From Paragemmobacter kunshanensis (GTDB lineage Bacteria > Pseudomonadota > Alphaproteobacteria > Rhodobacterales > Rhodobacteraceae): 64,000 bases of DNA. The translations under genes were made by a program, and so were the position numbers. Location of the stretch: contig NZ_JAALFE010000017.1 in NCBI RefSeq assembly GCF_011059185.1, positions 1 through 64,000 on the forward strand, given 5' to 3'. Positions 52,108-64,000 of the stretch are shown here, one piece after another; positions within the stretch are counted from its first letter, which is position 1, and every line of letters begins with the position of its first letter. The notes beneath the pieces are model-generated. The model had not been told where the DNA came from and searched no databases. It saw only the letters and a program-made list of their open reading frames with translations.

Positions 52108-53100
52108 TCAGAAGCTGGCATCCCGGTCCAGCGGCCAGACCGGGCGGCGCACCCGCGCATAGGGGCGGAGATGGGCCTGCGGGGTGGCCAGGGCGCCGGT
52201 ATCGCAAACGATCACCTCGCCGGAGACGGGTTCGAAGGCGGCCCGGAAATGCTGCATCGACTTGACCACAAGAAAGCGCAGATCAGCCGGTTCGATTCCG
52301 AAGGTGCGCACCTGTTGCAGATCGAGCATCTGGCCCGGCAGGGTGACGACGAGAATGTCGATGCCTTGCACGCGCAGCACGGCCGTCGGGCCGAAGCTGT
52401 GGGTAATGCCACCGAGGATCGGGCCATCGCCCGTATAGGTGCCGTCGGACAAATGCCTGATCTCGCCTGTCAGTCGAAGCGGGCCACCGCCAAAGGTGGG
52501 GTCGCATTTCCCGCCGAGTTCAAGGGTCACGCTGTCCCCGACCTTGTGTCGGTGCAGGATCGCTGCCGCTTCGGGATCAATCATGGGGGCGAAGGCGCCG
52601 GGGCCGGCGCCCGCGCGCAGCAGCGCCTGCAACAGTGCCGTCGCGTCGCCATAGGCGCCTGCCCCGGGGTTGTCGGCATAGTCGGCAATCACGAGCGGGC
52701 CCTTTGCGGCATCGAAATCCCGCGCCCGCGCTGCTGCCTGATCGGGCGTGAGAAAGGCATTGGCCACCTTGCCGCGCCCGTCCCAGATCCGGCGGGCCAG
52801 GCTTTCGGCGATCCGGGCCGCGCGGGCCTGGTGGCCCTGGTCATGGGTGACAAGGACCGTGGGCCCCATCTCGGTGATGTCGGCTTCGGAGAAGCCGGCA
52901 TTGATCGACACGGCGAGGATTCCGGGTTCTGCCTCATGGGTTGCGGCATCGGCATAGAGGGCGGCGGTTTCGGGCACGTCGGTCCGGCCGGCATTGGCCT
53001 CGTCCAGCATGGGTATGTGAACGCGCAATGTCCGGGGGGCCACCCTTCCCCGCATCGTCGCCTCCAGTAGATCACCCGCCTGCCGACCGATGCTGCGCAT
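52108..53100 (-). pseudogene. MlrC/M81-family metallopeptidase, N-terminus missing
   Basis: A 330-residue frame matches the C-terminal two thirds of MlrC (microcystinase C family, about 490 residues): DLLEATMRGRVAPRTLRVHI, AVSINAGFSEADITEMGPTV, VIADYADNPGAGAYGDATAL, and the end LRFLVVKSMQHFRAAFEPVS. The first 170 or so residues, with the zinc-binding start of the family, are absent. The frame ends abruptly at about 53100, where phage-type sequence begins on the opposite strand. It is probably an inactive remnant, though an ATG at 53100 leaves it open. Confidence 0.75.
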
Positions 53101-53500
53101 GTCGACATGCGGATACGGCTACACGCCCGAACGGCCGATGCGGGTGATACCTAGCGCAGCCGCCATCAGCAGGATGGAGGAATGCTTCGACTGGCTCCTG
53201 ATGCTGAACCCTGAGGATGCCCGGATCGTCTGGCTCAGGGCCGAGGGTGCTCGCTGGCGGCAGGTCTGCATTCGCGCCGGGGTGGTGCGATCGACAGCCT
53301 GGCGGCGCTGGGTGGCCGCTCTTCTGACCATCTCGAAGAAGCTGGAAAAGCTCGATAAATCAAAGGGCAAAGGCAAGGGCGCAAAACCCCTCACCGCAAC
53401 CGCCCGCAATCAACCGCGCGAAAGCGGCGCGGAAGCCGACGACAACCGGCCCGATCCGTCGAACTTCGGGCGCGACACTTTCCCGGGTTTTGATGCATAA
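53090..53500 (+). pseudogene. DUF6362-type phage protein, truncated
   Basis: The frame carries GYGYTPERPMRVIPSAAAIS and RMEECFDWLLMLNPEDARIV, then VWLRAEGARWRQVCIRAG and STAWRRWVAALLTISKKL. This matches the latter part of DUF6362 proteins of prophages and gene-transfer-like elements; the usual N-terminal 50-60 residues are absent. The C-terminal tail is lysine- and proline-rich. Its left border coincides with the broken MlrC gene. Confidence 0.6.
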
Positions 53501-53679
53501 AAAGGGCAAGATGGCGAAGGGTGCAGGCGACGATCGCTTCACCTGATGCCCTCACCCCTGCTTCCGCCGCCGCTCCCGGCTGCCCCCCCGCGTTAGGTTC
53601 TCCCGGAAGGGAGACGTATGCGGGGGGCCTAGGCGCGACTAACCGCTAGTGACAGAACAAAAATCTGGGTCCGCGCCTT

Positions 53680-53709
53680 GGGTGCGCGCTTTGGGTGCGC
53701 GGGTGCGCA
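53680..53709. repeat. Short tandem GGGTGCGC repeats
   Basis: GGGTGCGCG occurs at 53680 and 53693, and GGGTGCGCA at 53701, in the 257-base gap between the two phage-type fragments. The rest of the gap has no gene I can support. Confidence 0.5.
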
Positions 53710-53757
53710 CCTGACGCCGCACCTCGCCTCAGACCCTTCCGAAAGGCCCCGCGCCCC

Positions 53758-54021
53758 ATGCTTCAGATCGACATGCTCCCGGTTGACCGGCTGGTTCCCT
53801 ACATCCGCAACGCCCGGACCCATGAGCCGGATCAGATCGCCCAAATTGCGGCCTCGATCGCCGAGTTCGGCTTCACCAACCCGATCCTGATCGGCGAGGA
53901 CGAGGTGATCATCGCAGGCTACGGCCGCCTGATGGCCGCCAACGCGCTGGGCCTGACCGAAGTTCCGGTGATCGCGCTGGACCATCTGTCCTCCAACGTT
54001 CCCAGAGTCTGCGGTCACTAG
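53758..54021 (+). pseudogene. ParB/Srx-like domain of a phage DNA methylase, truncated
   Basis: MLQIDMLPVDRLVPYIRNAR, HEPDQIAQIAASIAEFGFTN and VIIAGYGRLMAANALGL are the N-terminal ParB-like domain that precedes a DNA methyltransferase in many Rhodobacteraceae prophages. Homology stops after VPVIALDHLS at about 54000, where SNVPRVCGH and a stop follow. The methylase part is missing. With the DUF6362 remnant it marks a decayed mobile element. Confidence 0.65.
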
Positions 54022-54101: not shown

Positions 54102-54854
54102 TCAGTCGAGGACGATGCCGCCGTCGACGTTCAGGGTCTGTCCGGTCACGAAGGCGCTGTCATCCGAGCAGAAGAAGGCCACGGGACCGGCCACATCTTC
54201 GGGATCGCCGATGCGGGCCATCGCGGTCTTTGCCTGCCAGGCGCCACGGATCGCGGGATCGTCAAGGTTCACGCGGCCCATGTCGGTCAGGATGATGCCG
54301 GGGCAGACGCAATTGGCGGTGATACCCAATGGGCCGACCTCTTGGGCCAGCACGCGGGTAAAGCCCATCACGGCTGCTTTCGATGCCGAATAATGCGCCT
54401 GCTCCGGCGCGCCATGCTTGCCGCCGATCGAGGCGATGTTGCAGATGCGCCCGTAGCCCTTGGCCTTCATCGCGGGGAGGACGGCCTGGGTAACAAGGAA
54501 GGTGCCCTTGGCATTCACGTCCATGACGCTGTCCCAATAGTCTTCGGGGCAATTTTCGACGTCCGAGGCGCGCAGGATACCGGCATTGTTCACGACGGCA
54601 TGGATCGTGCCGAAATCGTGCAGGATGCGGGCAACCATCGCCTGCACCGCGGCTTTCGACGACACGTCGGCGTGGTAGGGAATGGCGCGGATGCCGGCGG
54701 AGTGGGCTTCGGCTGCGACAGCTTCCAGCGCCTCCGCCTGACGGTCTATGTCGTTCAACGCAAGGTCGAAACCCCTCCGCGCAAGCCCAAGCGCGATGGC
54801 CCGTCCGATCCCCCTGCTTGCCCCAGTGACCAGCGCCACCCGTCCGTTGCCCAT
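54102..54854 (-). CDS. Short-chain dehydrogenase/reductase
   Basis: A 250-residue classical SDR. The nucleotide motif is VTGASRGIGRAIALGLARRG, then NNAG, the catalytic serine in IASIGGK, and YSASK (Tyr and Lys). The end reads GQTLNVDGGIVLD. I start at MGNGRVALVTG, which has an AGGGGAGGC ribosome site; a longer frame would overlap the upstream gene. It is the last gene of the sugar operon and probably oxidises a polyol or reduces a keto-sugar. Substrate unknown. Confidence 0.88.
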   Translation of the reverse strand: MGNGRVALVTGASRGIGRAIALGLARRGFDLALNDIDRQAEALEAVAAEAHSAGIRAIPYHADVSSKAAVQAMVARILHDFGTIHAVVNNAGILRASDVENCPEDYWDSVMDVNAKGTFLVTQAVLPAMKAKGYGRICNIASIGGKHGAPEQAHYSASKAAVMGFTRVLAQEVGPLGITANCVCPGIILTDMGRVNLDDPAIRGAWQAKTAMARIGDPEDVAGPVAFFCSDDSAFVTGQTLNVDGGIVLD

Positions 54855-54867
54855 TTCTGCCTCCCCT

Positions 54868-55614
54868 TCAAAGCGCGGTATATCCACCATCCACCGTCAG
54901 CACCGTTCCGGTCACATAACTGGCGGCATCAGACGCAAGGAAGGCCACCGCCGTTGCGATCTCGCGCGGGTCGGCAAGGCGGCCCATCGGAATGCCCTGA
55001 AGCCAGCGGTCGAACCATTCGGGGCGGGACCGGCCAGCCAACGTCAGCTCCGTCGCCGTATAGCCGGGGGCCACGGCATTGACCCGCACCTTGCCCGCCC
55101 ATTCCACCGCAAGGGATTTGGTCAGCATGTTCACCCCCGCCTTGGCCGCGTTATAGGCGGCCTGTGCCTGCGGGAAGACGACGATCTCGCCGCACATCGA
55201 GCTGATGTTGACCACCGATCCGCTCCCCGCCGCGACCATTGGGCGACCAAAGGCGCGGGCGGTGTGAAAGACGCCGTGCAGGTCCACGTCGATGACGCGC
55301 CGCCAGTCCTCCAGCGCGGTCTCCAGTGCGGGTCCGTTCTGCACGATCCCTGCATTGTTGACGAGGATCTGCGCCGGACCAAGGCGCGCGGCCAGCCCGG
55401 CGGCTGCGGTTTCGCAGGCGTCAGGATCGGTTACGTCCAGCAGCAGCGCCTCTCCCCCGATGTCGCGGGCGGTCTGTTCGGCGCGGGGAAGGTCGCGGTC
55501 CGCGATGACGACACGCGCGCCGCCTTCGGCCAGAACCTCGGCAATGGCGCGGCCGATCCCGGTGGCCCCGCCAGTGATGACGGCAAGGCGGCCCGATATG
55601 TCGAAGGCCTTCAC
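54868..55614 (-). CDS. Short-chain dehydrogenase/reductase
   Basis: A 248-residue classical SDR distinct from its neighbour. ITGGATGIGRAIAEVLAEGG, LVNNAGIVQNG, serines in NISSMCGE, YNAAKAGVNML for the catalytic Tyr and Lys, and GTVLTVDGGYTAL at the end. Related enzymes act on sugar alcohols or 3-oxo compounds. It starts at a GTG that overlaps the kinase stop by four bases (GTGA). Two SDRs in one operon would suit stepwise oxidation at different carbons. Confidence 0.88.
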   Translation of the reverse strand: MKAFDISGRLAVITGGATGIGRAIAEVLAEGGARVVIADRDLPRAEQTARDIGGEALLLDVTDPDACETAAAGLAARLGPAQILVNNAGIVQNGPALETALEDWRRVIDVDLHGVFHTARAFGRPMVAAGSGSVVNISSMCGEIVVFPQAQAAYNAAKAGVNMLTKSLAVEWAGKVRVNAVAPGYTATELTLAGRSRPEWFDRWLQGIPMGRLADPREIATAVAFLASDAASYVTGTVLTVDGGYTAL

Positions 55615-57110
55615 GCCCCGCTTCCCAGCGCGGATTTCAGCGCGGGGTAAAGCGCCTTGTAGCGGGCGTAGATTTCCGCGTAGGCGGCGACATTCGCGGG
55701 ATCGGGTTCCACCACGCGGCCCGGCTTGACCATGGCGGCAATGCCTTCGTCGATGCTGGCGAAGCGCCCTGCCCCATAGGCGGCAAGCACCGCCGATCCG
55801 ACCGAAGGCGCGTCGGGCGAATGGGGGATGCGGACGGGCAAACCCGCCGTATCGGCATGGATCTGCATCCACAGATCTGATGCCGTGGCCCCGCCGCCCA
55901 CCGTGATCTCGTTCGACGTGTAGCCCCCGGCGGCAAAGGCGTCGAGGATGGCGCGGGTGCCGAAGCCAATGCCCTCCATGATAGCGCGGAAGACGTGGTG
56001 GGGTTCATGCGCCAGCGTCAACCCGACGATCGCCCCGCGCGACAGCGGGTCGGTATAGGGGGTGCGGTTGCCCTGGAAATGATCCTGCACGATCACGCCT
56101 TCGGCCCCCGGGGGAAGGGCTGCGGCCTTCGCGTTCATTTGGTCCAGGTCCAGCGTTCCCCCCGTAAAACGGCGAAGCCAGTTGATGATCGAGCCGGTCG
56201 AGGTCTGCCCCCCTTCGACGATCCAGCGGTCGGGATAGACGATGTCGGGATAGGCCCCCCAGACGCCCGGCGCGTGCAGGGGGGCAGAGGTGACGCCGAA
56301 CTGCAGATGCGACGATCCGGTGATCAGCGCCAGTTGGCCAGGTTGCGCCACGCCCAGACCGATCATCCCGATCAGCGCATCGGCCCCGCCTTGCACCACC
56401 TTGACCGACTGCGGCAGGCCAAGCTCCGCCGCGGCGCGGGAGGTGAGGGTGCCCACCACCTCACCCGGCGCAAGGACGCGGGCGGGCCATTTCTCGACCA
56501 GCTCCTCCATCCCCAGCGCGCGGAGGATGCCGGTCGCCCAGCCGCCATTGCGCGACGAATAGTGCCAGCGCAGGCCTGCATTATCGAGGCTGGCAACCCG
56601 TTCGCCGGTCAGGCGCAGCGTCAGGAAATCCTGATATTCGCAGATCGTCCTGGCGCGGTCGAAGTTCGCGGGTTCGTTGCGTTTCAGCCAGAGCGCCTTG
56701 GGGATCATCCATTCCGCCGAAACTGGCCCCTGCCCCGCGCCGTTGATCCGCAGTGCGGCGTCGCCGGTGGCCAGCACCGCATCGGCCTCGGCGCTGGCGC
56801 GGACGTCCATCCACATCAGCGCGGGCCGCAGCGCGCGGCCTTCGGCATCCAGCGCAACGACGGTGCAGCAGGTGGTGGCGAAGGCCATCGCTTCGACCTC
56901 GCGCGGGTCGATCCCCGCTTCGGCCAATGCGCCGCGCGTTGCCTTGGTCAGACTGGACCACCAGTCCTCGGGGTCCTGTTCGGCGCGGGCGCCGGGGTAG
57001 AATTTTGTCTCGTAGGGTGCAGCGACCGAGGCGAGACAGTTCCCCGACAGGTCGAAGATGCGCACGCGAAGGCTTTCGGTTCCGCCGTCTGCCGCAAGAT
57101 AACAGGCCAT
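55611..57110 (-). CDS. FGGY-family carbohydrate kinase
   Basis: A 499-residue sugar kinase. The N-terminal phosphate loop is YLAADGGTESLRVRIFDLSG; MWMDVRASAEADAVLATGD and TICEYQDFLTLRLTGE follow in domain I. Domain II has VVQGGADALIGMIGLGVAQP and ITVGGGATASDLWMQIHAD, the FGGY signature. It should phosphorylate a pentulose, tetrulose or related sugar. I prefer the ATG at 57110 with GGGGGAGAAGG ahead of it; a TTG at 57143 overlaps the previous stop. Confidence 0.9.
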   Translation of the reverse strand: MACYLAADGGTESLRVRIFDLSGNCLASVAAPYETKFYPGARAEQDPEDWWSSLTKATRGALAEAGIDPREVEAMAFATTCCTVVALDAEGRALRPALMWMDVRASAEADAVLATGDAALRINGAGQGPVSAEWMIPKALWLKRNEPANFDRARTICEYQDFLTLRLTGERVASLDNAGLRWHYSSRNGGWATGILRALGMEELVEKWPARVLAPGEVVGTLTSRAAAELGLPQSVKVVQGGADALIGMIGLGVAQPGQLALITGSSHLQFGVTSAPLHAPGVWGAYPDIVYPDRWIVEGGQTSTGSIINWLRRFTGGTLDLDQMNAKAAALPPGAEGVIVQDHFQGNRTPYTDPLSRGAIVGLTLAHEPHHVFRAIMEGIGFGTRAILDAFAAGGYTSNEITVGGGATASDLWMQIHADTAGLPVRIPHSPDAPSVGSAVLAAYGAGRFASIDEGIAAMVKPGRVVEPDPANVAAYAEIYARYKALYPALKSALGSGA

Positions 57111-57139
57111 CGCCTTCTCCCCCCAAGTCAACCCGTCAC

Positions 57140-57475
57140 TCAACCCAGATCGCGGAATATCTGCAACGCCTTGGCTGCATACATGACCGCCGGGCCGCCG
57201 CCCATTTCAACCGCGATCTCCAGCGCCTCGATCAGCTGCGCCTCGTCCGCGCCGTGACGTCGGGCGGCGTCGGCGTGGTAGAGCAGACAATCCTCGCAGC
57301 CCTTTGCCGCCGCGATGGCCAGCGCGATCAATTCGCGTTCTGCAGCGTCAAAGCGGCCTGCCGTCGTCGCGGCCTTGCTGACCGCGCCGAAGCCCTGCAT
57401 CAGCGCGGGTGCCGCCCGCGAGAAGGCGGCAAGACGGGCCTTCGCGGCCTGAAGCTCTGCTTTGCTGTCAGACAT
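57140..57475 (-). CDS. Carboxymuconolactone decarboxylase/AhpD-like protein
   Basis: A 111-residue AhpD-fold protein. AIAAAKGCEDCLLYHADAAR contains the CxxC-x3-H redox centre of AhpD-type disulfide reductases. In mycobacteria AhpD takes electrons from lipoylated E2 proteins, so its position next to a lipoyl E2 gene here is striking. It overlaps the E2 stop by eight bases. Confidence 0.88.
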   Translation of the reverse strand: MSDSKAELQAAKARLAAFSRAAPALMQGFGAVSKAATTAGRFDAAERELIALAIAAAKGCEDCLLYHADAARRHGADEAQLIEALEIAVEMGGGPAVMYAAKALQIFRDLG

Positions 57476-58637
57476 GCTGGATCGCTCCTGTCACGATGGC
57501 GGCCACGTCGGCGGGCGCATCCCATTGCGGCATGTGGCCGGTCGGCAGGACATGCACCGCCGCGCGGGGCGGAAGGTTGAACAGATGCGCCGCGGGGATG
57601 ATGCGGTCGTCGCGCCCGATCAGCACGCGCAGGGGGATGCGGTCCGGCAGCCGCGACAGGGGGGCGAGCGTGTCTATGCGCTGGCCGTTCGGCCCTGCGA
57701 TGGCGGCGGCAAGAACGCCAAGGCGGCCTTGCGACAGGGTCTTGGCCATCGCCTCCAGCGCGTCGGTCGACAGTGTCGCGGCCTTGGGGCCGAGTAGGCG
57801 CAGCAGGTGGGCGATTTCACCCCCCGTTCGGGCATGGGCCATGCCGTGGACGAAGGCCACCTCGATCTCGCGCCCCAGTCCGGCGGGGGCGATGAGGGTA
57901 AGGGAAGCGACGCGGTCGGGGTATGCGGCGGCGTAGAGGGCGGCGAGATGACCGCCCAGCGAATGGCCGACGAGGTGGATCTTGCCTGTCACGCCTGTGG
58001 CATGGCGGTTGACGGCAGAAAACAGGTCGTCGATCCCCTGCGGCACCGTCCCATCGCTGCCGTGGCCCGGAAGGTCGGGGGCAAGGACGCTGTGGCCCGC
58101 GCGGGAAAGCGCAGCAGCGAGAGCAGCCCATGTCGCCCCGTCGCCCGCAAAGCCATGGAGGAGGAGGATGGTCGCGGGGCCTGCGGCGGGAATGTCCTCC
58201 GCCTCGATCCGGCCACGGCGGCCGGTGCCGGTGACGACTTCCAGCGCGACGCCGGACTGGCGGGCAAGGCGGCGCGCAGCGGGGGTGGCGCGGAGCGCAG
58301 CGGGCGCGGCCGCGGGCGCGCGGTGCGGTTCCGGCACAACGGGAGTGGCGGCGGGTTCGGGCGCAGGCGGCGACGGGGTGCCTGCGTCTTCCCACTGCGT
58401 CGCCTCGATCCGCGCGATGGGGGCGTCCACCGCCACCACATCGCCCGGCGCCACCAGCGTTTCCACCAGCACGCCATCGCCCAATGCGGGGTATTCCACG
58501 ACGGTCTTGTCGGTTTCCACCTCCAGCAGGGGCTGGCCGCGCTTGAAGGATTGGCCCGGCTCGATCAGCCATGCGGCGATGGTGCCTTCCTCCATCGTCT
58601 CGCCCAGACGGGGCATGGTCAGGGTGCGCGTTGTCAT
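57468..58637 (-). CDS. Acetoin dehydrogenase-type E2 (lipoyl domain fused to alpha/beta hydrolase)
   Basis: A 389-residue AcoC-like protein. An N-terminal lipoyl domain (about 1-78; lipoyl lysine at residue 44 in EVETDKT) is joined by a proline/alanine linker to an E3-binding segment (ATPAARRLARQSGVALEVVT) and then an alpha/beta hydrolase (LLLHGFAGDG; nucleophile Ser226 in VGHSLGG). Ordinary E2 enzymes have an acyltransferase core instead. AcoC accepts the acyl group formed by E1 and gives acyl-CoA. No E3 gene is in the window, so the cell's common E3 may be used. Confidence 0.9.
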   Translation of the reverse strand: MTTRTLTMPRLGETMEEGTIAAWLIEPGQSFKRGQPLLEVETDKTVVEYPALGDGVLVETLVAPGDVVAVDAPIARIEATQWEDAGTPSPPAPEPAATPVVPEPHRAPAAAPAALRATPAARRLARQSGVALEVVTGTGRRGRIEAEDIPAAGPATILLLHGFAGDGATWAALAAALSRAGHSVLAPDLPGHGSDGTVPQGIDDLFSAVNRHATGVTGKIHLVGHSLGGHLAALYAAAYPDRVASLTLIAPAGLGREIEVAFVHGMAHARTGGEIAHLLRLLGPKAATLSTDALEAMAKTLSQGRLGVLAAAIAGPNGQRIDTLAPLSRLPDRIPLRVLIGRDDRIIPAAHLFNLPPRAAVHVLPTGHMPQWDAPADVAAIVTGAIQHV

Positions 58638-59620
58638 GCGAACAGCCGCCCTGCCGTCTCGGCGATCAGCTTCGGCCCCGGGACCGACCCGCTTTCCAGC
58701 TGGGTGGAGACGGAGATGGGGATATCCTCGCCCGCCACGCGGATCACGGGGTCATGGAGGAAGTCGAAACATTCCTCAGTGATCCGCGCCGCCAGTTCCG
58801 CAGCCACCCCACAGGTCATCGCCCCTTCGGACACGACCATGACGCGCCCCACCCGTTCCACATGCGGGCGGATCGTTTCGAAATCCAACGGGTTCAGGGT
58901 GCGCAAGTCGATCACCGTCGCCTCGATCCCCTGTGCCGACAGGGTCTTGGCGGCGTCGAGCGCATAGTGGAGCTGGCGGGAATAGGTCACGATCACCAGA
59001 TCATCCCCTGTCCGCCGCACCGCCGCCTTGCCCCATTCCAGGGCGGGGGCGGAAAGGTCCACATCCTCTTTCATCGTGTAAAGCGCCTTGTGTTCGATAA
59101 AGACCACGGGATCGGGTTTCGTCAGCGCCTGACGGAGCAGATGGTAGGCATCGGCCACCGTGGCGGGCATCGCCAGACGCAGGCCGGGGGTGTGCATGAC
59201 ATAGGCCTCAAGGCTCTGGCTGTGCTGGGCCCCCGCCGACCGCCCCGTGCCGCCTTGGGTGCGAAGGACCATCGGCACGCCGATCTGGCCGCCGAACATG
59301 TAGCGGATCTTGGCGGCCTGATTGGCAAGCTGGTCCATCGTCATGCCGATGAAATCGACATACATGAGTTCGGCGACGGGGCGCAGGCCGGTCATCGCCG
59401 CCCCCACCGCCGCGCCGACGATGGCGGGTTCGGAAATCGGCGTGTCGATCACTCGGTCGGGGCCGAAGTCGCGGATCAGGTCCTTGGTCACGCCGTAGGC
59501 TCCGCCGTAGCGGCCCACTTCCTCGCCCATGATGACGACATCGGGATCGTCGCGCATCGCATCTGCCAGTGCCTGACGCAGCGCGTCACGATAGGTCATT
59601 TCCATGGCAGGGCCTTTCAT
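58634..59620 (-). CDS. Thiamine-diphosphate dehydrogenase E1 beta subunit (acetoin/2-oxoacid type)
   Basis: A 328-residue transketolase-like pyrimidine-binding subunit. MTYRDALRQALADAMRDDPD, VIMGEEVGRYGGAYGVTKDL, PISEPAIVGAAVGAAMTGLR and AQHSQSLEAYVMHTPGLRL are typical of E1 beta. It joins the alpha subunit to cleave its substrate through thiamine diphosphate. Four-base overlaps link it to genes on both sides. Confidence 0.92.
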   Translation of the reverse strand: MKGPAMEMTYRDALRQALADAMRDDPDVVIMGEEVGRYGGAYGVTKDLIRDFGPDRVIDTPISEPAIVGAAVGAAMTGLRPVAELMYVDFIGMTMDQLANQAAKIRYMFGGQIGVPMVLRTQGGTGRSAGAQHSQSLEAYVMHTPGLRLAMPATVADAYHLLRQALTKPDPVVFIEHKALYTMKEDVDLSAPALEWGKAAVRRTGDDLVIVTYSRQLHYALDAAKTLSAQGIEATVIDLRTLNPLDFETIRPHVERVGRVMVVSEGAMTCGVAAELAARITEECFDFLHDPVIRVAGEDIPISVSTQLESGSVPGPKLIAETAGRLFA

Positions 59621-60654
59621 TCGCGCGCCAGCACACGGTCAAGCCGGGTGCGGACGGGTTCGGGTTCGGGTTCGGACGGGTCGTAGACATCGCGGAACAT
59701 GGAGGAGAGCGGAGGTTCCGCCTGCGCGATGGTGAAATCGATGGTGGCGTCCATCTCGGCGTCGATGGCGGCGTCGAGCGCATCCAGATCGGCCGCCGTC
59801 ACCAACCCTGCCGCGATGAGGCGGGCGCGGGCATGGGCAACGGGGTCTTTCTGGCGGCCCGCGTCTTCTTCCGCCGCGTCGCGGTAGGGGGATTTGTCCT
59901 TTCGCGCGTGGCCGTAGAAGCGGTAGCAGTCCACGGCAAGGAAACCGGGTTTGCCCGCGCGCGCAGCATCGACGATGCGGCGGGCGGCGGCGGCGACGGA
60001 TTCCACGTCCAGCCCGTCCACCGTTTCGCCGTTCAGGCCGAAGGCCTGTGCGCGTTCATGCAGGCGGGTGTTTGCGGTGGCCTGATCGATGCGGGTGCCC
60101 ATGCCGTATTGGTTGTTGATGCAGCAGAACACCACCGGCAGACCCCAGAGCGCGGCCATGTTCATGGATTCGTAAAGAATGCCCTGCCCTGTCGCCCCGT
60201 CGCCGAAGAAGGCGACCGAGACGGCCCCCGTCTTCTTGTGCCGCGCGGCAAGCCCCGCGCCCACAACGGTGGGGATGCCGCCGCCCACGATGGCATTGGC
60301 CCCCAGATGGCCCAGCCCCATGTCGGCGATATGCATGGACCCGCCCTTGCCGTGGCAATAGCCCGCCTCCTTGCCGCCGATTTCGGCCATCATCCGTGCA
60401 GGATCGGCCCCGCGCGCAAGGAAGATGCCGTGGCCACGGTGATGCGTCGTGAAGGTGTCCTGCGGCTGCATCGCTGCGCAGACGCCGACCGCCGCGCTTT
60501 CCTCGCCGATGGAAAGGTGGAGCATGGAGCCTGCCGTCTGGCCGCGCACGAAGAGTTCGCCCACGCGTTCCTCGAAGCTGCGGACGCGCCGCATCTCTTG
60601 GTAGAGCCGGTGCAGGTCGGTGTTCGACCCCGGGATGGGATGTTGGAGGGTCAT
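59617..60654 (-). CDS. Thiamine-diphosphate dehydrogenase E1 alpha subunit (acetoin/2-oxoacid type)
   Basis: A 345-residue E1 alpha. SIGEESAAVGVCAAMQPQDT, RGHGIFLARGADPARMMAEI and GGSMHI precede the ThDP motif GDGATGQGILYESMNMAALW...N, and FYGHARKDKSPYRD is conserved. The length and the E2-hydrolase downstream favour the acetoin dehydrogenase group over pyruvate dehydrogenase. This type splits 2-hydroxy ketones (CH3-CO-CHOH-R), leaving acetyl on E2. It starts seven bases after the permease. Confidence 0.9.
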   Translation of the reverse strand: MTLQHPIPGSNTDLHRLYQEMRRVRSFEERVGELFVRGQTAGSMLHLSIGEESAAVGVCAAMQPQDTFTTHHRGHGIFLARGADPARMMAEIGGKEAGYCHGKGGSMHIADMGLGHLGANAIVGGGIPTVVGAGLAARHKKTGAVSVAFFGDGATGQGILYESMNMAALWGLPVVFCCINNQYGMGTRIDQATANTRLHERAQAFGLNGETVDGLDVESVAAAARRIVDAARAGKPGFLAVDCYRFYGHARKDKSPYRDAAEEDAGRQKDPVAHARARLIAAGLVTAADLDALDAAIDAEMDATIDFTIAQAEPPLSSMFRDVYDPSEPEPEPVRTRLDRVLARE

Positions 60655-60661
60655 GACTTTC

Positions 60662-61651
60662 TCAGAGCAGGTTGAGTTTCGTGGACCGCGACACGATGGC
60701 GACGGCGATGAGGATGATGGCGCCCTTCACGATGGACTGGATGTAGGTGTCCATCCCGATCAGGTTCAGCCCGTTGTTGATGATGCCGATGAAGAGCGCG
60801 CCGAAGAAGGTGCCAAGGACGGTGGCGGTGCCGGGGCGCAGCATCGTCATGCCGATGAAGACCGTGGCCAGACCGTCGAGCAGATAGCGTTCCCCCGCAT
60901 TGGGTTGACCGGAACCGAGCCGGGCGGCGAGCAACATCCCCGCGATGACGGCAAAGACCGAACAGACGATCAGCGCGGCGGCACGGTAGCGGCGCACGGT
61001 GACGCCGGACAGTTCGGCGGCCTTCTGGTTGCCGCCCACGGCATAGATGTAGCGGCCGAAGACGGTGCGTTCCATCACGAACCATGCCACGGCGACGACG
61101 GCGACCATGAAGAAGGCCAGCACGGGGATGCCCGCGATGCGGCCCTGCCCAAGCCAGAGATAGGCGTCGGGCAGCCCGCCATAGATCGCGCGGCCTCCCG
61201 TAGAGAGGAAGTTGATGCCGAAGAGGATGGAGCCAGTGGCCAGTGTGGCGATGAGGGAGGGGATGCCTACCACCGTGACGAGGAGGGCATTGGTGGCCCC
61301 GATGGCCAGCCCCGCCGCCAGCCCGCCGAGGATCGCCACGGGCAGCGGCACGCCGCTGATGAGCATGAGCGGCACGAGGATGCCCGCCATGCCGACCGCA
61401 TAGCCGACCGACAGGTCCATCTCGCGCGCGGCGAAGCCGAAGGTCAGCCCCGCCCCCACGATGGTCAGCATCGAAATCTGCTGGGCGATGTTCAGCAGGT
61501 TCTGCGAGGTGAGGAACCTGTCGACCGTGAGCGAGAAGATGACGAACATCAGCGCCAGCACAACCAGCGTGGAATAGCGCTGGATCAGGTCCTTGCGGAT
61601 GCCCAGCACCGCATCGTGCTGCGGGGCGGTGGGGGAGGTCGCGTCGCTCAT
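60662..61651 (-). CDS. Ribose-type sugar ABC transporter permease
   Basis: A 329-residue RbsC-like permease with eight to ten helices. LLNIAQQISMLTIVGAGLTF, REMDLSVGYAVGMAGILVPL, and YAVGGNQKAAELSGVTVRRY are the family blocks; FGALFIGIINNGLNLIGM ends it. The start overlaps the ATPase stop by four bases. It should form a homodimeric channel for a pentose, hexose or polyol. Confidence 0.92.
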   Translation of the reverse strand: MSDATSPTAPQHDAVLGIRKDLIQRYSTLVVLALMFVIFSLTVDRFLTSQNLLNIAQQISMLTIVGAGLTFGFAAREMDLSVGYAVGMAGILVPLMLISGVPLPVAILGGLAAGLAIGATNALLVTVVGIPSLIATLATGSILFGINFLSTGGRAIYGGLPDAYLWLGQGRIAGIPVLAFFMVAVVAVAWFVMERTVFGRYIYAVGGNQKAAELSGVTVRRYRAAALIVCSVFAVIAGMLLAARLGSGQPNAGERYLLDGLATVFIGMTMLRPGTATVLGTFFGALFIGIINNGLNLIGMDTYIQSIVKGAIILIAVAIVSRSTKLNLL

Positions 61652-63150
61652 GCGGCTACTCCTGACATGGATTGGATGAAGCGGGCTTCGGAGAATTCTG
61701 TGGCCGGAATGGCGGGGCCGGGTCTGCCTCCCGTGAAGGGGATGACGCGGTGGGCAAGTTCGGCCACTTCGCCAAGGTCGGAAGAGGCGATGAGGATGCC
61801 CACGCCCTGTGCAGCGAGGCGGCGCATTTCGGCGTAGATTTCGGCCTTGGCACCGATGTCGACGCCTTCGGTCGGTTCGATGAAGATCATCACGCGGTAG
61901 CGGCCTTCGGCTCCGTAGAGCCATTTGCCGATGGATATCTTCTGCTTGTTCCCGCCTGAGAGGGTTTTCAGCGCCTGGCCGGAGCCATGCGCCTTGACGT
62001 TAAGGAGGCGCATGACGCGGCGGGCCTCGGCCTCTTCCTTGCGGGGGAAGAGGATGCCTGCGGTGGCGGCGTGGCGGGTGTGGACCATGGCGAGGTTTTC
62101 GCGCAGGTCCCAGTCGCCGATGAGGGCGTATTCCATGCGGTGATCGGGGACGAGGGCCAGCCCTGCCGAGAGCATGGCGCGCACGTCGCGGGGGCTGACG
62201 GGGCGGCCCGCGATGGAAAGCGCGTCGACCTGCACCCCTGCGGGATTGTGCAGGGCGCGGGCAAAGCCGACATGGCCCGCCCCGGTGAGGCCGATCAGGC
62301 CCACGATTTCGCCCTCGTGGAGGGTGAAGTCCGACACCTCGATCCGTCCGGAGCGCCAGTTGCGGAGCGCGAGGACGGGGTTCCCCGTCGGGGGCGCGTG
62401 GACGTTGGCAGAGGCGCGGCGGGTGTCATCGGTGCGGCGGAGCATGAGGTCGACCATGCGGCCTTCGGACATGCGGTCGGCGGGTTCGGTCGCGATCAGG
62501 CGTCCGTCGCGCAGGACGGTGATGCGGTCGGACAGCGCCTTTATTTCAGAAAGGAAGTGGCTGATCAGCACGACCCCCACGCCGCGCGGCGGAAGAGAGC
62601 GGATGATGCGCCAGAGCTGTTCCTTTTCGCGCACGGGCAGGGTAGCGGTGGGTTCGTCGAGGATGAGCAGGTGGACCTGTCCGCGCAGGGCGCGCACGAT
62701 TTCGATCACCTTGCGGTCGGCCATTGGGAGTTCGCCCACCGGGCGGTCGAGGTCGATGGCGACTTCGGGGAACCAGCGGGACAGGGCCTCTGTCGCGGCA
62801 GCGCGGAGAGCGGCGCGGTGTATGACGCCGAAGCGGCGGGGTTCGGCGCCCAGGAAGATGTTTTCCGCCCCCGTGAGCGCAGGGACAAGGCTGCCTTCCT
62901 GACTGACATGGGCGATCCCGCGCAGGAGCGCAGCGCGGGGAGAGGTCAGGTGCAGCTTTTCGCTGCCGATGGCGATGCTGCCCGAAGTCGGGGCAAGGCT
63001 TCCGCCGAGAATGGAGACAAGGGTGGATTTGCCCGCGCCATTCTCACCGATAAGGCCATGCACCTCGCCGGTGTGGAGAGCGAGCGAGACGTCATCAAGC
63101 GCCCGCGTGCCGGGGAACTGCATGGTGATGTTGGAAAGTGTGATGTCCAT
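61648..63150 (-). CDS. Ribose-type sugar ABC transporter ATPase (two ATPase halves)
   Basis: A 500-residue RbsA-like protein. The first half has Walker A GENGAGKSTLVSILGG, Walker B LLILDEPTATLP and switch LISHFLSEIKA, but a degenerate signature (VGELPMADRKVIEIVRA). The second half has a degenerate P-loop (GLTGAGHVGFARAL) with a good signature LSGGNKQKISIGKWL and EPTEGVDIGAKAEIY. This split of active and inactive parts is usual for the family. I start at MDITLSNITMQF; longer frames read through the hairpin. Confidence 0.92.
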   Translation of the reverse strand: MDITLSNITMQFPGTRALDDVSLALHTGEVHGLIGENGAGKSTLVSILGGSLAPTSGSIAIGSEKLHLTSPRAALLRGIAHVSQEGSLVPALTGAENIFLGAEPRRFGVIHRAALRAAATEALSRWFPEVAIDLDRPVGELPMADRKVIEIVRALRGQVHLLILDEPTATLPVREKEQLWRIIRSLPPRGVGVVLISHFLSEIKALSDRITVLRDGRLIATEPADRMSEGRMVDLMLRRTDDTRRASANVHAPPTGNPVLALRNWRSGRIEVSDFTLHEGEIVGLIGLTGAGHVGFARALHNPAGVQVDALSIAGRPVSPRDVRAMLSAGLALVPDHRMEYALIGDWDLRENLAMVHTRHAATAGILFPRKEEAEARRVMRLLNVKAHGSGQALKTLSGGNKQKISIGKWLYGAEGRYRVMIFIEPTEGVDIGAKAEIYAEMRRLAAQGVGILIASSDLGEVAELAHRVIPFTGGRPGPAIPATEFSEARFIQSMSGVAA

Positions 63151-63178
63151 TCGCGCCGACCCCTGCTGCCCTTGTGGA

Positions 63179-63203
63179 GGACCGGGCCATCGCGGCCCGG
63201 TCC
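63179..63203 (-). terminator. Stem-loop after the sugar-binding protein gene
   Basis: A perfect ten-base stem GGACCGGGCC / GGCCCGGTCC with loop ATCGC lies between the binding-protein stop and the ATPase start. No T run follows in either direction. As with the hairpin at 25304, this probably keeps binding-protein mRNA more abundant than the membrane-component mRNA. Confidence 0.7.
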
Positions 63204-63214
63204 CATGGTTGGGA

Positions 63215-64000
63215 TCACATGAAGTCCTGGCAGTTCTTCTTGGTGACGAGGGGGGCATCCATGTAGACGGTCTTGGACGGGATCACATCATCGGCGGGTT
63301 TGCCGTTCACGACGATCTCTTCGATCCACTGGCCGACCTGCTTGCCCATGCCCTCGAAGGGCTGCGAGACGGTGGCAATCATCATGCTGTCGGGTTTGCA
63401 GACCTCGGCCACGGCCTGCGGGTGGCCATCGATGCCGATCACCTTCACTCCGGTGATCCCCGCCGCGGTAAGCGCGTTGATGGCGGCCTGCGCCGGTTCG
63501 TCCCACGGTGCCCAGACGGCGTTGATTTCCGAACCGAAACGGGCGGCGTAATCTTCCATCGTGCGAGATGTGTCTTCGAAGAAGGCGGTGTAGTCGATGT
63601 TGTGTTCCGCCAGCACCTTGACGTCGGGATATTCCTTCAGCACGTCTTCCATCACGTCGCCACGCTTGCGCGTGCCGTGATGTTCGGCCATGCGCAGAAA
63701 GATAATGTTGCCCTGACCGCCCAGCTGATCGAGCAGATAGGGAGACACATCCGAGGACATGGCCCAGTTGTTCGTCGTCACGTCGACCACCACTCCGTCG
63801 ATATACCCGCTGTCCACAGAAAACACCGGGATGCCCGCCGCGACGGCGGCGTCGATGGCGGCGCGGCTGGCGCGCAGGTCGGACATGGTGATGATGATGG
63901 CGCCCACGCCACGGTTGGCGGCATCCTGGATGTTCGAAGCCGTCGCCTCTCCCGAGCCTGCGCTGTCGAGGAAGCTGATGTTCCAGTCCGTCTTGCCGCT
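63215..64000 (-). CDS. Ribose-type sugar ABC transporter periplasmic binding protein (5' end outside window)
   Basis: At least 261 residues of a periplasmic binding protein type 1 domain (RbsB/XylF-like), open at the window edge; its signal peptide and start lie beyond 64000. Visible blocks are NISFLDSAGSGEATASNIQD, GAIIITMSDLRASRAAIDAA, GIPVFSVDSGYIDG and GVKVIGIDGHPQAVAEV. It should be the first gene of the long minus-strand operon and sets the sugar specificity. Confidence 0.9.
   Translation of the reverse strand, partial: SGKTDWNISFLDSAGSGEATASNIQDAANRGVGAIIITMSDLRASRAAIDAAVAAGIPVFSVDSGYIDGVVVDVTTNNWAMSSDVSPYLLDQLGGQGNIIFLRMAEHHGTRKRGDVMEDVLKEYPDVKVLAEHNIDYTAFFEDTSRTMEDYAARFGSEINAVWAPWDEPAQAAINALTAAGITGVKVIGIDGHPQAVAEVCKPDSMMIATVSQPFEGMGKQVGQWIEEIVVNGKPADDVIPSKTVYMDAPLVTKKNCQDFM

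Follow-up and report, generated by a model that had tools for sequence, protein, structure and literature searches.

Why would genes for an acetoin-type cleavage complex share a unit with those of a sugar-type importer and a carbohydrate kinase? This question is raised by positions 54102-64000 of the window, the whole 64,000-nucleotide stretch of Paragemmobacter kunshanensis DNA analysed here. The minus strand of this region carries ten genes, and the families that an initial annotation had given them were borne out by gene calls and by NCBIfam and Pfam scans. The reading that we prefer, at a probability of about 0.53, is that the unit serves the catabolism of a sugar or polyol with a methyl-ended carbon chain through acetoin-type cleavage, with the kinase acting first. 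The features are as follows.

63215..64000, minus strand: ribose-type ABC solute-binding protein (SBPA), truncated by the window end
61648..63150, minus strand: sugar-type ATPase of the ABC family, whose two nucleotide-binding domains give two PF00005 stretches
60662..61651, minus strand: ABC permease, ribose type (PF02653)
59617..60654, minus strand: TPP-dependent E1 alpha subunit with acetoin-like signature residues (PF00676)
58634..59620, minus strand: E1 beta subunit (PF02779 and PF02780)
57468..58637, minus strand: AcoC-type E2 that combines a lipoyl domain, an E3-binding domain and an alpha/beta hydrolase (NF011457)
57140..57475, minus strand: AhpD-like member of the carboxymuconolactone decarboxylase family, carrying a CxxCxxxH motif (PF02627, TIGR00778)
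55611..57110, minus strand: FGGY carbohydrate kinase, XylB/ribulokinase-like (PF00370, PF02782)
54868..55614, minus strand: SDR oxidoreductase 1 (PF13561), GTG start placed by comparison with relatives
54102..54854, minus strand: SDR oxidoreductase 2 (PF13561), start placed by comparison with relatives
about 64298-65272 of the contig, divergent, just past the window end: SorC-type regulator

The listed likely starts were chosen from codons and comparison with relatives (the latter for the ATPase start at 63150), while the family scans used slightly different starts for the ATPase, permease, kinase and SDRs. The gene of the solute-binding protein (SBP) extends beyond the window to about 64162-64168 of the contig (L009). 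Four-base overlaps occur at four of the nine junctions (ATPase/permease, E1alpha/E1beta, E1beta/E2 and kinase/SDR1), so that their earlier description as the prevailing arrangement was overstated; the E2 and AhpD-like genes overlap by eight bases, and the remaining four junctions leave 7 to 64 bases between the genes. The transport genes have the make-up of a CUT2 (ribose-type) importer, namely a Peripla_BP_4-type SBP, a two-domain ATPase and a BPD_transp_2 permease. The top NCBIfam matches of the ATPase (AraG, 382 bits) and the permease (PRK09512, 215 bits) were both under the respective cut-offs.

The E1/E2 complex

The E2 protein passed the AcoC-type model NF011457 (328 bits; cut-off 307) and contains PF00364, PF02817 (E3-binding) and PF12697. 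Its catalytic part is thus an alpha/beta hydrolase, not the chloramphenicol-acetyltransferase type found in the pyruvate dehydrogenase (PDH) complex. The lipoyl residue Lys44 is kept in 81 of 81 aligned rows, and S226, D344 and H368 each in 80. For E1alpha, 24 invariant columns are common to three AcoA rows and absent from 23 PDH rows, whereas 13 columns show the opposite pattern. The passed model supports the proposal of an acetoin-type E2, and the column count leans towards an acetoin-like E1.

The E1alpha tree, built with a quick method and with long branches flagged, placed the 85 rows of this cluster in a clade of their own (SH-aLRT 99). The 23 PDH rows formed a separate clade (SH-aLRT 99), outside which the cluster lies; nor did it group with the AcoA rows in this tree, since the split (SH-aLRT 92, not starred) left it on the PDH side. 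E1alpha is 43% identical to AcoA and 44% to the PDH of its own genome, and scored 322 bits against TIGR03182, under the cut-off. E1beta, which shares 43% identity with the PDH of this genome, passed the subfamily model PRK09212, named 'PDH E1 beta' (352.8 bits; cut-off 321), and was under the cut-off of the equivalog PRK11892 (343 bits; cut-off 454).

As previously stated, neither AcoR nor E3 is encoded by any of the ten genes; two E3 genes pass the curated cut-off elsewhere in the genome in a profile search. The scans also assigned none of the ten to the NAD kinases (AcoX) or the sigma-54 regulators. Together with the SorC-type regulator, these absences support the view that the unit does not serve plain acetoin use. 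The CxxCxxxH motif of the AhpD-like protein is kept in 51 of 51 sequences, and a 42% identical protein occurs in a Paracoccus acetoin/butanediol operon.

Conserved core and exchanged surroundings

The unit recurs on plasmids. Nine plasmid records have an SBP at least 76% identical to that of the window and also top the E2 search, and the gene order was kept in the seven of them examined; the arrangement is therefore not due to chance. Across six plasmid copies, E1beta is 80-83% identical. Flanking genes, compared by eye, vary by locus, with no neighbours conserved outside the type A unit (defined below). The sole cross-genus repeat noticed in the flanks is a set of ABC importer and amidohydrolase genes by the Tritonibacter and Shinella copies.

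The locus survey covered 80 of 538 relatives, with gene labels assigned by our own tblastn thresholds, under which small counts may shift. The unit was found in 54 of the 80 named loci. Among loci with enough sequence, E1beta and E2 are each present in 70 of 70 and the FGGY kinase in 69 of 70. The SorC regulator occurs in 73 of 74. These proteins and E1alpha make up a constant core (for L079, L081 and L088, where an overlapping frame had displaced the label of E1alpha, the match position was taken instead). According to the E1alpha tree with locus types mapped, which excluded the long rows L040 and L102 and left mixed or untyped rows unlabelled, the uptake part around this core has been exchanged at least seven times. 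In type A, to which the window belongs, the core is surrounded by the importer, the AhpD-like protein and two SDRs; type B has a different importer, a ketose 3-epimerase, DhaKL and an aldo-keto reductase, and was assigned when the stretch covered contained at least one among SBPB, DhaK and the epimerase. Single type B parts were found in 14-20 of 21 type B loci, and the aldolase in 6. For the type B epimerase, a match to D-tagatose 3-epimerase chains was obtained at 456 bits; the type B SBP belongs to the LsrB/rhamnose group.

The 5-deoxyribose/methylthioribose salvage genes mtnK-mtnA adjoin 11 of 22 type B loci, within about 12 kb on the same contig (L025, L031, L032, L034, L039, L043, L044, L051, L058, L095 and G035). 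Six have no such adjacency (L038, L046, L047, L050, L089 and L098), and the remaining five (L029, L040, L060, L083 and L094) reach contig ends that leave it undecidable. A class II aldolase is also present in nine of the 11. Among these, L058 combines mtnK-mtnA with a core of type A that resembles that of the window, and L025, with MtnK, MtnA and aldolase at the locus, is among the rows nearest the window's E1alpha. By its gene neighbourhood, then, type B putatively ties the core to methyl-ended pentoses. For the window's own unit this link is indirect, since mtnA was never beside a type A unit: judged from positions and contig extents, none of the 18 type A genomes carrying mtnA has it adjacent, and in the nearest case (L052) it is about 37 kb away. 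The earlier proposal of a methyl-ended substrate gained from the type B relatives. Profile scans found no mtnK, mtnA or class II aldolase in the window's unit, and the genome's own mtnA is on another contig. In 81 genomes, mtnA was present in 22 of 22 with type B (in two pieces in L029; partial and below the cut-off in L040), in 18 of 52 with type A (no match in the other 34) and in six of six with neither type; the window's own type A genome, outside the 52, also has it, and the search of the L071 genome served for L072 too, which lies in it. Taken by itself, the presence of mtnA is a weak signal that kinship confounds.

Proposed pathway and alternatives

From these genes we infer the following reactions and substrate. 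The ribose-type importer would take up, in type A, probably a deoxy-alditol, for which 5-deoxyribitol is one candidate. Oxidation by an SDR at the carbon adjoining the methyl group would yield a 1-deoxy-ketose, CH3-CO-CHOH-R, whose far end the XylB-like FGGY kinase would phosphorylate. E1alpha/beta with thiamine diphosphate would then split the C2-C3 bond as in acetoin, freeing a shorter aldose phosphate, and the acetyl unit would pass to the E2 lipoyl domain and onto CoA, with E3 from the housekeeping complexes reoxidising the lipoyl group with NAD. The net reaction would be 1-deoxy-ketose phosphate + CoA + NAD to acetyl-CoA + aldose phosphate + NADH. The probable signal for the SorC-type regulator is a sugar phosphate.

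The initial annotation had let the kinase take the other cleavage fragment, which is probably not the case. The kinase scored 304.7 bits against XylB (TIGR01312; cut-off 380.25), 266.3 bits against ribulokinase and 113.4 bits against fuculokinase, each under the cut-off. Because it is XylB/ribulokinase-like and a member of the constant core, and because XylB is reported to phosphorylate 1-deoxyxylulose (excerpts of PMC3424233), action on the 1-deoxy-ketose before cleavage seems more likely. The same excerpts report that purified PDH makes 1-deoxyxylulose, and a title cited there names acetoin dehydrogenase as well. A more specific version, which we put forward tentatively and hold to be doubtful, is that the core splits 1-deoxy-D-xylulose 5-phosphate, or a close 1-deoxypentulose phosphate made by the kinase, with CoA and NAD into acetyl-CoA and a triose phosphate; it would then belong to a series of acetoin-type complexes each adapted to different sugars, another of which would be the fused E1 lineage of pRL8-type plasmids.

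Several points count against the proposed methyl-ended pathway. 5-Deoxy-D-ribitol would give an L-series ketose, leaving L-glyceraldehyde 3-phosphate; the pathway gives no role to DhaKL in type B or to a second SDR in type A; and the position of the E1alpha clade and the PDH-named subfamily passed by E1beta may point towards PDH.

An unlikely alternative is that, after polyol import and SDR oxidation, the complex splits ordinary 2-ketoses of the form HOCH2-CO-CHOH-R, for example xylulose or ribulose, into glycoloyl-CoA and a shorter aldose. Pentitol use commonly relies on a set like the one here, consisting of an importer, SDRs and a kinase related to XylB or ribulokinase, and the type B epimerase groups with 3-epimerases named for ordinary ketoses. 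However, the AcoC-type E2 and the acetoin-like E1 columns suit an acetyl donor, mtnK-mtnA beside type B points towards 5-deoxy sugars, and such a ketose phosphate requires no complex of this kind.

Rather unlikelier, the complex might take the acetaldehyde or lactaldehyde left over when a deoxy sugar is broken down and oxidise it to an acyl-CoA, while an aldolase would act on a deoxy-ketose 1-phosphate made by the kinase. In the rhamnose regulon of Caldicellulosiruptor bescii, a three-subunit enzyme resembling acetoin dehydrogenase has been proposed to metabolise lactaldehyde (excerpts of PMC8579813), and the products of the class II aldolase in the nine mtnK-mtnA loci would include acetaldehyde (parts of PMC6079011). 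The type A unit nevertheless contains no aldolase gene, such an aldolase was labelled in only 6 of the 80 loci surveyed (flanks of at most 10 kb), and the kinase ranks XylB and ribulokinase far above fuculokinase.

It is improbable that small acyloins or vicinal diols, as in acetoin/2,3-butanediol use, enter via a sugar-like transporter, despite the AcoC-type E2 and a Paracoccus acetoin operon that also has an SDR and an AhpD-like protein. Acetoin use is not known to need an ABC importer or a sugar kinase; plain acetoin use was rejected on the E1alpha tree, with E1alpha apart from AcoA, and on the constancy of kinase and SorC across loci.

More improbable still is uptake and destruction of an autoinducer-2 (AI-2)-like molecule, with E1/E2 replacing LsrF/LsrG. 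The logic would be that of the lsr operon for AI-2 uptake and breakdown, which combines a SorC-type regulator, a ribose-type importer, an FGGY kinase and an acetyl-CoA product; the regulator's best solved relative is LsrR, and the type B SBP falls in the LsrB/rhamnose group. On the other hand, the kinase scored only 177.7 bits against the AI-2 kinase model (cut-off 528) and is not of the LsrK type, the list of 40 relatives of the window's SBP includes no chain named LsrB, and profile scans found no LsrF or LsrG among the ten genes; an lsr-type AI-2 pathway was rejected on the kinase and SBP results. Predicted models of both SBPs (of middling confidence for type B, pLDDT 77.7) gave only family-level structural matches with many tied rows, and the 50 listed for the window's SBP include no AI-2 receptor. 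Least probable of all is a second pyruvate or branched-chain dehydrogenase sited beside sugar genes, which the E1 identities, the E1beta subfamily and the PDH side of the tree would favour but which the AcoC-type E2, the own E1alpha clade, the 24 AcoA-like columns and the kinase kept with the core speak against, so that it was rejected.

Significance and comparison with known systems

A prior description of an acetoin-type complex acting on methyl-ended sugars was not found in the open-licence papers searched, within which the earlier label 'undescribed' holds; a term search of PMC3333776 turned up no passage on the pRL8 fused-E1 genes. If the methyl-ended reading is true, a recurring, often plasmid-borne unit would provide a new route from such sugars to acetyl-CoA, a function for genes now labelled 'pyruvate dehydrogenase E1' and a natural setting for a ketose 3-epimerase family with solved structures. 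In the more specific and doubtful version, the core would in effect undo the carbon bond made by DXP synthase and offer S-adenosylmethionine-derived methyl-ended pentoses an oxidative exit, with both fragments staying in central metabolism. According to excerpts of PMC6079011, 5-deoxyribose derives from a by-product of radical S-adenosylmethionine enzymes, rats excrete 5-deoxyribitol, and the authors who first described 5-deoxyribose salvage saw in its limited spread a sign of other disposal strategies.

That pathway, the DHAP shunt (MtnK or DrdK, MtnA or DrdI, and a class II aldolase), also degrades methyl-ended pentoses, but it does so by aldol cleavage of the 1-phosphate to DHAP and acetaldehyde, without TPP or CoA (parts of PMC6079011 and PMC12632272). 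The MTA-isoprenoid shunt of Rhodospirillum rubrum converts a methylthiopentose to 1-deoxyxylulose 5-phosphate; unlike the proposed route, it supplies isoprenoid synthesis, and no E1/E2 complex is described for it in excerpts of PMC4958253. Athe_0702-4 of C. bescii is, like the complex proposed here, of the acetoin type and in a deoxy-sugar regulon, a likeness drawn from description and not from sequence, but is said likely to metabolise lactaldehyde (excerpts of PMC8579813).

With the acetoin dehydrogenase system (AcoA/AcoB/AcoC), the unit has in common the RGHG, IAD and GAN stretches of E1alpha and an E2 composed of lipoyl, E3-binding and alpha/beta hydrolase regions. The Paracoccus pantotrophus acetoin/butanediol operon (L104) likewise contains genes for an SDR and an AhpD-like protein alongside AcoABC. 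The unit differs in the absence of AcoR, AcoX and E3 and in having its own E1alpha clade, a sugar importer, an FGGY kinase and a SorC regulator. The last three, together with the acetyl-CoA product, would be common to the proposed unit and the lsr operon, from which it is set apart by an E1/E2 complex in place of LsrF/LsrG and by a kinase and an SBP from other subfamilies.

Gene content of the unit and its borders

Domain and family profile searches placed ten genes on the minus strand at 54102-64000, the number given in the initial annotation, with the following products.

Within 54102-64000, minus strand: ribose-type ABC importer (solute-binding protein, SBP; ATPase; permease)
Within 54102-64000, minus strand: E1 alpha and E1 beta
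Within 54102-64000, minus strand: E2 combining a lipoyl domain, an E3-binding domain and an alpha/beta hydrolase domain
Within 54102-64000, minus strand: AhpD-like protein
Within 54102-64000, minus strand: FGGY kinase
Within 54102-64000, minus strand: two SDRs (SDR1 and SDR2)

Four-base overlaps, earlier said to join most of these genes, were found at only 4 of the 9 junctions. The SBP gene is completed beyond the window on the same contig, and a divergent SorC-type regulator gene comes next. The earlier remark that E3 is absent was borne out, as none of the ten genes encodes one; two E3 genes above the curated cut-off are present in the genome, and the unit's E2 carries an E3-binding domain. 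The kinase resembles XylB/ribulokinase in profile searches. Just beyond the 3' end of the unit, the region 52108-54021 contains an MlrC-type gene whose N-terminal domain is missing its first half, together with a DUF6362 protein and a weakly ParB_N-like fragment, which are perhaps mobile-element or prophage debris at the border.

Conserved core and exchangeable entry parts

Tblastn against plasmids returned nine records with an SBP at least 76% identical to that of the window, and the same nine headed the tblastn search with E2. Seven of them were read (Tritonibacter, two Rhizobium, Nitratireductor, Sinorhizobium, Shinella and Roseateles), and gene order and orientation are retained across all seven. 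Identity to the window in six of these seven is 80-83% for E1beta, 77-80% for the SBP, 74-77% for E1alpha and 72-74% for the kinase. The Nitratireductor copy has a single SDR (38% identity to SDR1), the R. hidalgonense record stops partway through the kinase, and in the Sinorhizobium meliloti Ak57 copy the frame encoding E2 is split in two (L015:19537-20855). The distribution is patchy, because E2 was found at E 1e-60 or better in only 2 of 295 sampled genomes of the window's family, its own genome included.

An E1alpha scan of genome contigs yielded at least 538 relatives, the best 80 of which were examined. Among these 80, downstream sequence of 4.5 kb or more was available for 70 loci, of which all 70 had E1beta, all 70 had E2 and 69 had the kinase, while 73 of 74 loci with at least 5 kb upstream had the SorC-type regulator. 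The window's SBP type (type A) occurred in 54 of the 80; where such loci had at least 6.5 kb downstream, 49 of 50 carried at least one SDR and 41 an AhpD-like gene. In 21 of the 80 there were components of a second set (type B), which comprises a different importer, having two permeases, as well as a ketose 3-epimerase, DhaK, DhaL and an aldo-keto reductase; 6 of the 21 also had a class II aldolase. One locus (L058) had both types and six had neither. At least seven A/B changes are required on a tree of 83 E1alpha rows (79 labelled), which indicates that a single core has been coupled repeatedly to different entry parts.

A fused E1alpha/beta was found in 16 plasmid records. In the four places read, on plasmids of rhizobial, Agrobacterium and Pleomorphomonas hosts, a separate lipoyl protein and a separate alpha/beta hydrolase come after it, a SorC-type regulator lies nearby, and the other neighbours are these:

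L020 (2469-6000) and L181: sugar kinase, TIM-barrel isomerase/epimerase, type B-like importer
L182: mannitol-dehydrogenase-family gene, sugar importer
L183: FGGY kinase

The fused E1 falls outside the cluster clade in the E1alpha tree, on a very long branch and by a quick method. Acetoin-type complexes therefore seem to have been recruited into sugar units more than once. Elsewhere, Sinorhizobium meliloti Rm41 pRM41A (L108, 160000-196000) carries two acetoin-type E1-E2 sets with an identical E1beta protein accession; the sets are placed around genes for a Gfo/Idh oxidoreductase and a sugar isomerase and around sugar ABC genes. The window's own genome also has a fused E1-like open frame of 745 residues in another gene setting (L022, C31:15000-34999).

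Acetoin-type or pyruvate dehydrogenase-type E1/E2

The window's E2 passed the curated acetoin dehydrogenase E2 model. All 81 E2 rows have the lipoyl lysine, and the Ser, Asp and His of the triad are each present in 80; 40 of the 81 proteins have two lipoyl motifs and 41, including the window's, have one. In a quick tree with long branches flagged, the 85 cluster E1alpha rows formed a single clade separate from 23 pyruvate dehydrogenase (PDH) rows and the AcoA references, and the split from the AcoA side had an SH-aLRT of 92; the tree therefore puts the cluster no nearer AcoA than PDH. E1beta passed the cut-off of a PDH-named subfamily. Against this tree placement and the E1beta model stand 24 E1alpha columns at which the cluster residue is that of three AcoA rows and not of PDH (13 are PDH-like), among them H72 and G74 (both within THHRGHG), I109-A110-D111 and A119-N120. 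A Paracoccus plasmid acetoin/butanediol operon also has an SDR and an AhpD-like gene with its AcoABC genes, and such accessory genes are therefore not peculiar to the unit. By analogy with AhpD, the AhpD-like protein may exchange electrons with the lipoyl group.

A possible route for methyl-ended sugars

The normal acetoin reaction cleaves CH3-CO-CHOH-R into an acetyl unit and an aldehyde. Given this chemistry, the XylB/ribulokinase-like kinase and 5-deoxyribitol as a deoxy-alditol that the type A SDRs may meet in nature, we propose that the substrate would be imported, oxidised by an SDR at the carbon adjoining the methyl group, phosphorylated and thiolytically cleaved to acetyl-CoA and an aldose phosphate. 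We give this route, in which every enzymatic step is inferred, a probability slightly above one half (about 0.53). According to a passage in PMC6079011, rats reduce 5-deoxyribose and excrete it as 5-deoxyribitol. With 5-deoxy-D-ribitol as substrate, the resulting ketose would belong to the L series and L-glyceraldehyde 3-phosphate would be left to dispose of; the true substrate may be another isomer or chain length.

In the set at L025, one of the related loci, APH, IF-2B and class II aldolase domains occur among the encoded proteins, and passages in PMC6079011 and PMC12632272 assign mtnK, mtnA and a class II aldolase to 5-deoxyribose salvage (the DHAP shunt). We searched 81 genomes for mtnA and fetched the surroundings of the matches. 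Of 22 type B loci, 11 had mtnK and mtnA on the contig that carries the set and no more than about 12 kb away from it, among them G035 from the window's own family and L058, whose core is type A; 9 of the 11 also had the class II aldolase. Adjacency was assessed in 17 of the 22, and 6 had no adjacent mtnK-mtnA. Among type A genomes, mtnA was found in 18 of 52 and adjoins the unit in none of the 18; in the window's own genome it sits on another contig. There (L177, C41:108000-127999), mtnK-mtnA lies beside a class II aldolase fused to an SDR, a ribose-type importer, a RuBisCO-like protein and a split transketolase. The latter may be a further TPP enzyme, acting on 1-deoxy or 1-methylthio xylulose phosphate; a transketolase pair at L157 resembles it by eye.

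No description of such a unit was found in the open-licence papers searched. The nearest published statement found, in a passage of PMC8579813, concerns an acetoin-dehydrogenase-like enzyme in the rhamnose regulon of Caldicellulosiruptor bescii, which likely metabolises lactaldehyde. We rate the machinery of the unit as acetoin type and its setting and probable substrate as new.
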